In this document: piece after piece, positions 17,516 to 22,146 of the stretch
Position numbering within the stretch: position 1 is the stretch's first letter
Layout of the letters: each line of letters starts with the position of its first letter
DNA from: Spizellomyces punctatus DAOM BR117
Taxonomy: Eukaryota > Chytridiomycota > Chytridiomycetes > Spizellomycetales > Spizellomycetaceae
Direction of reading: 5' to 3'
NCBI RefSeq assembly: GCF_000182565.1
Contig: NW_015971538.1
Location: 1,608,983 to 1,672,982, forward strand
Length of the DNA: 64,000 nt
Translations under genes and position numbers: made by a program
Notes under the pieces: generated by a model
Told to the model about the DNA's origin: nothing
The model's input: the letters and a program-made list of their open reading frames with translations, nothing else
The model's database searches: none

Positions 17516-17827
17516 CTATCCGGAGGACGGGACTGCAGCGGGATGTCTTGGACTTGTATCGCTCCTTGCTGCGTGTAGTGCGAACAAAGCCTGAGGTATA
17601 TGCCTGTGTACTGTTGCTGAGCCTCGTGCTCTTTGTCGTAACTTTTGACTTTGCAGTCATCGCGAGATCATTTCTACAAGTACATACGGTCTCAATTCAG
17701 GCAGGATGCTTCCAGCGTATCTCAGAGGGATATATCTACGATTGAGTTCATGCTGAGAAAGGGACGAAGACAACTAGAGGTCCTGAAGAGTGATAGTGTA
17801 GTGGATATCTCCCCTCCGTCATATTAG
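17512..17827 (+). CDS. SDHAF1: Succinate dehydrogenase assembly factor 1, LYR-motif protein
   Basis: Two exons (17512-17595 and 17657-17827) join in phase across a 61-nt GT-AG intron to give about 84 residues, the size expected for Sdh6/SDHAF1. The start reads GLQRDVLDLYRSLLR, carrying the LYR tripeptide used for Fe-S cluster transfer from the ISC machinery, and the second exon continues HFYKYIRSQFRQ and STIEFMLRKGRRQLEVL. Role by family: helps insert or protect the Fe-S clusters of the SDHB subunit in the mitochondrial matrix. Another small LYR protein (LYRM) is the main alternative. Confidence 0.82.
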
Positions 17828-17858
17828 AACCTCCACACTTTGGCGGATACCTTGTACA

Positions 17859-17891
17859 TAGTGCGGAGCCGATGGGTATTGGCACTAGTAC
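17859..17891 (+). repeat. Left terminal inverted repeat of the Fanzor element
   Basis: Pairs with 19968-20000, with two mismatches. The tetranucleotide CATA occupies 17857-17860 at its outer edge. Confidence 0.9.
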
Positions 17892-18022
17892 AAAGATTCC
17901 AACCAATTTAATCATAATTTTACTCGATTTAGACTCATGAACTATGGTTTGTTTGATCCAAAAATCCTATAATAGTCATCGTCCATTTTCCCAGGCTTTC
18001 ATCTTTTTCTACAGATATCAGC

Positions 18023-19901
18023 ATGCCACCAAAAAAGAAGCAAAAAGTCGACAAACCCACCTTACATACCTGTAACAAGACTTCCTTTGCAAAAGCTTTC
18101 CTGCCAAACGAGATCTATCGCCAACGGCTTCTAGACTTACATCACCATCATCCATCAACTCGCCGACCACGCTTCCCACGCTCTCAAATTCTACATCCTC
18201 TCCACATCCACATCCACATCGTCTTTCCCGGTTGTTCACAAAGATACAATCGAAGCCCTTCTCTATCTTCTCAACAAAGGAGAGGCTTGGCAACCAAAAA
18301 TTGATGCGAAAAGGGCATTGCGCAAATCCTTGTTGCCATATGTCCAACGGTACTGCCAAATCGTCGGCTTCGTTCCCCCAAATCTACAAAAAGAGCAGCA
18401 ATCAGTCAATTACCTGACAGCGAGTATGATGACGAACCTGAGAGTCAACGTTCAAGAGCATTTCATGCAGATGCTGCTCCGATATATCAATCTGCGGCTT
18501 GACGTGAAGAGACAGAAGCAACTGCCACTGAAAAGCAATGCGCGGAAAGCTTTCTTTACTCGACTACGCTACTTGAAGTCAGTTTTTCTTTTTGATATCG
18601 TGCCCGAGTCGCTGGATTTAACACCACTGGAGAGCGAGGTTCTTGAAGAGATTTGGTCATTGGATCTCCCATTCCTTCCCAACGATCCCCTTGCCTATGC
18701 CATTGTTGCTGATCCAATGTCATTTTTTCCCGCGTACTGCAAACTCTCTCGGCTGTATGAACGACATGGCTTCCGTCGGTTCAGTGCAATCCCTCTTCGT
18801 CGGTCTCTGATTCAGTCCCATATTCGCATTGACACGGTCATTCTCTACGCCCACATCCTCTGCATCACCCGCCAAGAAGCAGAAGCCGTAGAGAAGGTCG
18901 ATTTATGGTTGCGCGTCTGTAATCTACGTACCAAAGCTTTTCGGTCTCGCCGCAGTATGCAGTTTGAGGGTTCGATCACGACGGATGGAACCTCGGTGTC
19001 TGTATACCTAAAGCACCCAGAAGCAGACAAGTATGGAAAGCGCGGAGCGAGAAAGTCAGCAAAGAGTTTGGAGGACGAAGTGAAAGCGCAATACATGGAG
19101 AAAAACTTACCTGCTTGTCGAACAGCAGAGAATGTTGTTGTTATCGACCCAAACAAGCGCGACATTCTCTACTGCCAAGACGGCAATGGTACAACGTTTC
19201 GCTACACTGCAAACCAGCGAGCCATGGAGACAGGCAGCCGTCGGCAGCGAAAGGAACGACAGCAGATGAAGAAGGAAGCGGGAATGGACCTCATAGAATC
19301 ACGAATACCATCTCACAAAACAATGAACCTCATGGATTTTACTCGCTACCTCCTCGTCCGTCGTGTCGACTGGAACCGCCGCAAGGACTTCTATTCGCAT
19401 CCTGCTCATACTCGATGGAAATGGCACGCATTCATAAACCGTCAGAAGAGCGAATCAGACCTCATAAGTAACATGCGCAACAAGTACGGTGAAAACCTTA
19501 CTGTTGTAATGGGTGATTGGAGCGACGCCGGTCGAACTGCAAGATTTCAGACCTCATCAAAGACGAAAGGTTGGCGCACCCTCTTTAAGCGCAACAGGAT
19601 CAACTGCTTCCTTCTCGATGAGTACAAGACCTCATCTGTTTGCCCTCGCTGTTCCTCATCTGAGTTTGTGGAGAAAAAATTCAAAGAACGACCTCATTCA
19701 AGACCTTATCGACGACGAGAAGGCAAGATTGAAAAAGTCCACGGATTGCTGGGTTGTACCAACCCTAACTGTTTGCAGCAAGCCTGGACGATGCGCTACT
19801 GGAATCGAGATACGCTGTCAACCTGCAATATGCTAATGATCGTGCAATCAATGTTGGATGGACACGGTAGACCAGAAGTGTTCAGCAGGAGTGTAGCGTA
19901 G
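18023..19901 (+). pseudogene. Fanzor (eukaryotic TnpB homologue), RNA-guided DNA nuclease with one apparent frameshift
   Basis: Reads from ATG at 18023 (MPPKKKQKVDK, a basic likely nuclear localisation signal) to TAG at 19899-19901. Residues 1-38 are in one frame; from 18138 onward the protein continues in the next frame for about 587 residues. The switch sits at GACTTAC, where one surplus T separates RQRLLD from YITIIHQLADHASHAL; dropping it gives about 625 residues. Motifs: RuvC-I VVVIDPNKRD (Asp about 375), the alternative glutamate in FLLDEYKTSS (about 533), a zinc finger CPRC...CTNPNC, and RuvC-III YWNRDTLSTCN (Asp about 596). From memory this closely matches SpuFz1 (638 residues). All catalytic motifs are intact, so the frameshift could be a sequencing error, a young inactivation or recoding; I label it a pseudogene only because of the break. 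Confidence 0.85.
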
Positions 19902-20000
19902 CGTAGATTGGTTAGATTAGATTAGGTTTTCCGAACCGGTTGTCGCGCGGTTCAATCCCTGGTGCGGGTGCTAGTGCCAATACCCACCGGCTCCGCACTA
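19899..20000 (+). ncRNA. Putative Fanzor guide-RNA (fRNA/omega-RNA) region
   Basis: By analogy with TnpB and Fanzor elements, the guide RNA comes from the 3' end of the gene and the right end of the element, with the guide copied from the adjacent flank. The region shows TAGCGTAGATTGGTTAG (19899-19915, tRNA A-box-like, its first three bases being the Fanzor stop codon) and GGTTCAATCCC (19949-19959, B-box-like). GGTGCGGGT (19961-19969) can pair partly with ACCCACC (19982-19988). The exact ends are unknown. A TTTT at 19927-19930 between the boxes argues mildly against uninterrupted Pol III transcription. Confidence 0.5.
19968..20000 (-). repeat. Right terminal inverted repeat of the Fanzor element
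   Basis: Reverse complement of the left repeat. It lies 66 bases past the Fanzor stop codon and would form the 3' part of a right-end guide RNA. Confidence 0.9.
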
Positions 20001-20201
20001 CTATAGCATCGTTAGTAAATAAATATACCTGCACGCAAGCAATGGAATTCATGGTTCCACCAGTTACTGCTTCACGGCTGATTTGGCACGCTTGATAGGA
20101 CCGTCAAGCGTCCACGCGACCAGCGCCATACCGGTTCACGCAATAGTGTTAATATCAAAATTCATGTATTAGGCAATTCAGTTGTCATCAACCACGACAA
20201 T

Positions 20202-22074: not shown

Positions 22075-22146
22075 TCCGCATTGGTCCAGTGGTTAGGATC
22101 CCGCGCTTTCACCGCGGTGGCCGGGGTTCGATTCCCCGATGCGGAG
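22075..22146 (+). tRNA. tRNA-Glu (anticodon UUC)
   Basis: A 72-nt cloverleaf with no intron. Acceptor arms TCCGCAT and ATGCGGA pair over 7 bp with discriminator G; the anticodon stem CCGCG/CGCGG encloses loop CTTTCAC (anticodon TTC); the T-arm is CGGGG-TTCGATT-CCCCG. The internal A box (TGGTCCAGTGGTTAGGA) and B box (GGTTCGATTCC) are canonical. Confidence 0.96.

Follow-up and report, generated by a model that had tools for sequence, protein, structure and literature searches.

The 2.1-kb unit at positions 17859 to 20000 of the window, the 64,000-nucleotide stretch of Spizellomyces punctatus DNA analyzed here (C2:1608983-1672982; the genome comprises 24.0 Mb on 29 contigs), is a genuine and already published element: a copy of SPu-1, the Fanzor prototype of this species. 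In the explanation that we favor, this frameshifted SPu-1/SpuFz1 copy is probably a non-autonomous, TA-ended transposon with terminal inverted repeats (TIRs) that carries Fanzor1 and a wRNA and is moved in trans by a Tc1/mariner-type enzyme, with the nuclease favoring retention. The element family itself is a rediscovery, having been in print since 2013 (Bao and Jurka) and again in 2023 (Saito), and the novelty implied by the initial annotation of this DNA does not hold. What is added here beyond those publications is the restriction of CATA to left ends, purifying selection on the nuclease, covariation between TIR and RNA scaffold, and a candidate transposase. With a candidate transposase, CATA confined to one side and a dN/dS value of 0.15, the missing transposase and the biological role of Fanzor, which Saito 2023 states to be unknown, become experimentally approachable.

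SPu-1 has been described as an element of about 2,100 bp with 33-bp TIRs, putative TA duplications and 17 full-length copies (Bao and Jurka 2013). For S. punctatus, Saito 2023 reports 42 Fz loci and 134 ghosts, mentions Gypsy/Ty3 insertions, and demonstrates RNA-guided DNA cleavage by SpuFz1, for which CA precedes the left end, the TAM is CATA, and the 88- to 90-nt ncRNA comprises a 75-nt scaffold and a 14- to 15-nt guide. The unit in the window shares with this locus a length of about 2.1 kb, 33-nt TIRs, TA termini, a single Fanzor1 open reading frame (ORF), CA before the left end and a wRNA at the right end. It differs by a frameshift near 18137 and is otherwise a member of the family, to which we assign it because of DNA identity over its whole length. 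The ghost Spu-1 elements of the same report resemble SPu-1 in their CA-biased left end and homologous wRNA right end but lack the Fanzor gene, have distinct TIRs and, in the 18 that we delimited, span 701 to 785 nt. The features of the unit and its borders are the following.

17857-17860, + strand: CATA, made up of CA and the TA of the terminus, identical to the TAM published for SpuFz1 (sequence; CA counts over the family; Saito 2023)
17859-17891, + strand: left TIR, starting with TA (31/33 to the right arm; mean pairwise identity of 0.958 over the 18 complete copies)
18023-18136, + strand: first piece of the Fanzor1 ORF, matching residues 1-44 of the 638-aa ORF found at locus L004 (tblastn, element frame 3)
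18138-19901, + strand: remainder of the Fanzor1 ORF in another frame, with a Met-started part from 18426 (491 aa), a stop at 19899-19901 and the motifs IDPNKRD, LDEYKTSS and WNRD (tblastn; 996.5 bits to 8gkh; ORF list)
19925-20000, + strand: putative wRNA scaffold, homologous to the 75-nt scaffold in print (two helices that covary in an alignment of 34 distinct right ends; Saito 2023)
19960-19967, + strand: scaffold arm pairing with the 8 terminal nt of the right TIR (19993-20000; alignment columns 37-44 against 70-77; SPu-1 and ghosts differ at both positions of two pairs)
19968-20000, + strand: right TIR, ending with TA (31/33 to the left arm; mean pairwise identity of 0.964 over the 18 complete copies)
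20001-20015, + strand: predicted guide region in the flanking DNA, from the published 14- to 15-nt extension (Saito 2023)

The two 33-nt arms are 94% complementary and enclose 2076 nt. They are not a product of chance, since a 30-nt end pattern has 74 matches in the genome at up to 3 mismatches, against none for a reversed-pattern control, and whole-length copies lie elsewhere: among the 40 of 150 candidates that were scored, at least 13 further places align across the entire query (1-2142) at 83 to 87% identity. The borders are identical in the 18 copies having both ends, and none of these ends at a different point; partial copies are also present, several of them interrupted by a long terminal repeat (LTR) element. 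Both ends of the unit carry TA. The TA target duplication stays putative because no empty site was found, either genome-wide for 18 joined flanks, where all 36 matches were the elements' own flanks, or for 52 joins in the extracted locus DNA.

The Fanzor1 protein of the unit was matched to the S. punctatus Fanzor structure (PDB 8gkh) at the score given above, and a by-eye comparison shows that the 638-aa L004 ORF resembles a stretch of the same protein. With that ORF as the tblastn query, the frame of the window copy is broken near 18137. The 491-aa part stays open and retains the catalytic motifs, those around the RuvC residues D383, N385, E541 and D606 of SpuFz1 being present in the alignment. 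As read from its DNA, the window copy can no longer make a full-length nuclease and is dead as a nuclease gene, although it could still be a source of wRNA, the role given to ghosts in a published proposal (Saito 2023). The longest other ATG-started ORF in the unit has 106 aa and is antisense, and no DDE transposase appears in the list of ORFs of at least 60 aa. The initial annotation had correctly recognized a chytrid Fanzor transposon that has TIRs, ends in TA and lacks an internal transposase; its description of the element as complete holds for the ends and fails for the gene. Since SPu-1 lacks the DDE transposase of its own that defines a Tc1/mariner element, it works like a non-autonomous one, without proven membership.

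In sister copies, the nuclease appears to be kept working. Fourteen SPu-1 ORFs exceed 600 aa, and 12 pass a filter for length, an MPP start and the NRD motif (L017 and L020 fail). Over the 66 pairs of these intact ORFs, the median dN/dS is 0.148 (0.113 to 0.228) at a median dS of 0.530, and the four catalytic residues are kept in all 12. Across the 18 two-ended copies, identity is lowest at third codon positions (0.722, versus 0.904 at first and 0.921 at second positions), while the inner scaffold reaches 0.938. These values indicate purifying selection. Five broken copies show dN/dS values of 0.14 to 0.24 to their nearest intact copy, as if they had been broken late. Recent duplication and strong selection were both left open by Saito 2023, and the dN/dS and dS values favor selection. 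That wRNA ends and TIRs owe their conservation just to the youth of the copies, the nuclease being under no selection, is highly improbable: a close pair does exist (L008/L012, dS of 0.046), but the medians over all pairs contradict this reading, as does the greatest divergence at codon position 3.

Covariation links the right TIR to the scaffold of the guide RNA. Thirty-four distinct right ends (19 from SPu-1 and 15 from ghosts) fold into two helices with 99.3% of the scaffold cells paired, and in the outer stem the scaffold pairs with the final 8 nt of the right TIR, including its TA. Two adjacent outer-stem pairs are C-G and G-C in 19 rows and U-A and A-U in 15. Cells changed on both sides number 34, against a shuffle mean of 12.4 (reached by 0 of 500) and 0 to 6 when slid; by contrast, the number of double-changed pairs, four, is attained in 71 of 500 shuffles, and the number of pair types in all 500. 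The U-A and A-U rows are exactly the 15 ghosts, which corresponds to about one event per pair, in addition to a change from G-C to A-U in the other helix in 3 rows. The covarying helices point to the structured wRNA ending at the right border that is expected of an OMEGA system, and for the Fanzor1 RNA of SfAV both TIR and target site duplication were predicted to lie within the scaffold (Yoon 2023). The covariation suggests that one TIR of such an element is constrained by two machines at the same time, with the guide RNA as well as the transposase depending on it.

A Pol III origin of the wRNA was considered on account of tRNA-like boxes at 19899-19911 (TAGCGTAGATTGG) and 19949-19959 (GGTTCAATCCC), a reading that draws on the tRNA-like box consensuses, and was dropped as unsupported. 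Neither an Rfam search nor ARAGORN reported a tRNA over the region 17700-20200, and the second box reads GGTTTATTCCC in 12 of the 15 ghost rows, which counts against such an origin.

The sequence outside the terminal TA differs between the two ends. CA is found there at 30 of 33 SPu-1 left ends (the other three have TA) versus 5 of 39 right ends (Fisher, 1.1e-11), and in ghosts at 19 of 25 left ends (the others being 3 CT, 2 AT and 1 TT) versus 1 of 17 right ends (6.4e-6), on a background of CA before TA of 0.086 in the analyzed DNA. T at position -4 has a background of 0.258 and occurs at 23/33 left and 25/39 right ends of SPu-1 and at 7/25 left and 12/17 right ends of ghosts. The ghost left-end set consists of all 25 exact left-end matches on contigs C1 to C6, ghosts picked by their CATA being counted only if they belong to it; L063 and L066 (duplicates of L046 and L048) and ends with less than 20 nt of flank were left out. 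The SPu-1 ends therefore have a symmetric part, the T at -4, as expected of a transposase acting on TA, and distinct from it an asymmetric part equal to the TAM. Fanzor is a plausible cause of the one-sided CATA. The same data are compatible with a transposase that is oriented at its target, and such an enzyme stays in consideration because the ghosts lack the symmetric T at -4. Two of the 39 SPu-1 right ends, L043 (C7:276422) and L044 (C7:283420), lie 7 kb apart and share the same 20-nt flank; they are probably one duplicated segment.

As to what could move such elements, Saito 2023 states that no transposases flanked by Spu-1 inverted repeats were found, and among the matches listed from the Fanzor and S. 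punctatus literature we recognized no further report of a transposase for SPu-1 repeats. A genome search with PF13358, whose positive control was detected in 3 of 14 genomes, returned two places, one with an open 408-aa frame, and a protein search of the genome returned the same 408-aa gene together with four weak, stop-bearing matches. Genome searches with PF03184 and PF01359 gave no matches, their positive controls being equally silent. The open frame belongs to a transposon on contig C3.

C3:531540-534565 (L087:1641-4666): transposon unit of 3.0 kb with its own TIRs, single copy
L087:3451-4671, - strand: DDE_3 transposase gene, open 408-aa frame

This protein resembles the IS630/Tc1/mariner superfamily in having DDE_3 (47.9 bits versus a cut-off of 28.6) and HTH_23 domains above their cut-offs and a D-D-E motif, D214-D294-E339, of which D214 and D294 are invariant and E339 nearly so in 13 sequences. 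The NCBIfam IS630 model matches it at 2.8e-24, below the cut-off (86.1 of 100 bits). It differs from the superfamily in that 44 residues separate the second D from the E, the spacings common in Tc1/mariner groups being shorter. A protein search over public sequences gave 44 relatives, up to 70% identical, three of them named from chytrids (Phlyctochytrium arcticum, Lobulomyces angularis and Clydaea vesicula); in viral contigs, no relative of either this transposase or SpuFz1 was confirmed.

The TIRs of the C3 unit are 25/27 identical to each other and occur nowhere else at up to 3 mismatches. The left one starts with TA and the right one with AA, leaving the TA duplication off by one base; CA is present at neither end, and no wRNA was seen. 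Compared with the ends of ghosts and SPu-1, the C3 left TIR is identical at 21/27 positions to ghost left, 18/27 to ghost right, 19/27 to SPu-1 left and 18/27 to SPu-1 right, values reached by 0, 6, 0 and 1 of 200,000 shuffles, respectively. Without the outer 7 nt, the identities in the same order are 14, 12, 13 and 12 of 20, reached by 14, 348, 37 and 87 of 200,000 shuffles. Among 549,463 analyzed 27-mers, two outside the ghost/SPu-1 class as scripted reach 18/27 (one of which looks like a SPu-1 variant) and none reaches 19/27 or more except the unit's own ends; some of the TIR matches are thus within reach of chance in so wide a scan. Two complete ghosts, mutually inverted, lie 656 and 167 bp from the unit, and random placement of 114 to 134 ghosts would bring both within 656 bp with a probability of about 1e-5, assuming that ghosts are evenly spread. 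On these similarities, the C3 transposase is a candidate mobilizer of the SPu-1/ghost family, and the chance that the mobilizer belongs to the lineage of C3:531540-534565 is about even.

Other candidates were rejected. The DDE_3 gene is not the content of one ghost TIR pair, as it has TIRs of its own and lies between two complete ghosts, and for the second DDE_3 match (L088) and the relics on C2, C1 and C7 (L089 to L091) the TIR comparison gave nothing related, 17/27 being the best value. As possible large autonomous elements, seven pairs of SPu-1 ends lying 11 to 31 kb apart were considered, and all seven contain pieces of one LTR-retroelement family; three of them include runs of N (1,172, 2,558 and 13,860 letters), and in the seven a transposase is excluded by the PF13358 search alone. 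Within the C3 transposon, overlapping ORF pieces at L087:2040-3371, on the strand opposite to the transposase, match SUKH-3 below the cut-off (19.3 of 23 bits) and are perhaps captured cargo.

Mobilization in trans by an IS630/Tc1/mariner-type enzyme, as also suggested in the initial annotation, is the best-supported inference for SPu-1 now that a candidate with related ends exists, although the TIR of this candidate agrees with the left end of SPu-1 at only 19/27 positions. Published Fanzor1 TIR elements have TA duplications, and some, like SPu-1, lack a transposase of their own; they differ in that their TIRs were stated to be identical to those of confirmed Mariner elements, and in SPu-1 the TA duplication is putative. 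With IS200/IS605 TnpB OMEGA systems, SPu-1 would share an RNA-guided nuclease, a TAM at the left border and a guide from the right flank, as published; it differs from them in having TIRs and TA termini, in lacking TnpA and in placing the target dinucleotide inside a scaffold stem. In our favored explanation, an IS630/Tc1/mariner-type DDE transposase would move the family in trans, and the nuclease, guided by right-flank sequence, would cut unoccupied sites consisting of CATA and the guide sequence. Repair from the occupied copy would then keep or spread the insertion, and insertions in the wrong orientation, giving no TAM, would be lost more often, leaving CA at left ends only. Counting against this explanation, the searches turned up no transposase whose ends nearly match those of SPu-1, the C3 unit exists as one copy with an imperfect TA duplication, and CA is missing at 3 of 33 left ends in SPu-1 and at 6 of 25 in ghosts. 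That ghosts have T at -4 on one side lowers our confidence both in this explanation and in the reading of Fanzor as a drive.

A more specific version is tentative and on balance doubtful: a symmetric, TA-targeting transposase of the C3 lineage would insert SPu-1 and ghosts either way, and mainly insertions with CA at the left end would persist, since without that CA Fanzor would lack the TAM it needs to cut empty alleles and so drive the element through repair. If this is true, Fanzor acts in trans as a retention or drive nuclease serving a community of ghosts and of elements that carry the nuclease, and the lineage of the transposase moving Fanzor is now identified. The competing account, to which we give an appreciable chance clearly below even, is that CA reflects asymmetric target choice by a transposase oriented by its unequal ends, the nuclease having later used this site as its TAM, as in IS200/IS605. 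It would explain why CA is equally left-sided in ghosts, which have no nuclease gene, and why their T at -4 is one-sided; however, SPu-1 has T at -4 on either side, which looks symmetric, Fanzor could filter ghosts in trans, and the C3 unit, in which no wRNA was seen, has CA at neither end, albeit as a single case.

As to the mobilizer, it is not far short of an even bet that the C3 transposon is a mere superfamily cousin sharing TIR features by descent, the true enzyme being lost or missing from the assembly. The modest TIR identities (19/27 to SPu-1 left, 18/27 to ghost right and SPu-1 right), the absence of any other copy of the C3 TIRs at up to 3 mismatches and the room that the searches with silent controls leave for other transposases all fit such a cousin, but the inner TIR is also alike (14/20 to ghost left and 13/20 to SPu-1 left) and two ghosts closely flank the unit. 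Single-strand peel-and-paste movement by an HUH enzyme with CATA as its target, and with no DDE transposase, is quite improbable. The position of CATA 5' of the left end does resemble target placement in IS200/IS605, and promotion of single-stranded DNA transposons was raised as a general Fanzor possibility (Saito 2023), but long, near-perfect TIRs and the T at -4 on both TA sides in SPu-1 fit a DDE enzyme.

The ghosts have further features in common. A TATA-like box, TCTATAAAAGGGG, is found in 17 of the 18 delimited ghosts at up to 2 mismatches (L067 to L087), and they may have a promoter of their own. A short ORF with WWCRGP is kept in 14 of the 18, with a pooled pN/pS of 0.68 over 48 codons.

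An LTR-retroelement family with a 572-bp LTR directly abuts SPu-1 sequence in 9 distinct copies; the junction differs from copy to copy and falls between SPu-1 positions 129 and 1991.

C10:440819, C11:908345, C12:163921, C15:68223, C17:447122, C8:806916/815750, C8:959766/975224, C9:315857 and C9:1020441: LTR/SPu-1 joins (loci L018, L024, L029, L031, L033, L038, L039, L045, L049 to L052 and L059)

Since SPu-1 makes up an estimated 0.35% or so of the genome, this family may target SPu-1 by preference. In the window itself, a tRNA-Glu (TTC) gene was located by ARAGORN at 22075-22146 on the + strand, about 2 kb to the right of the element.
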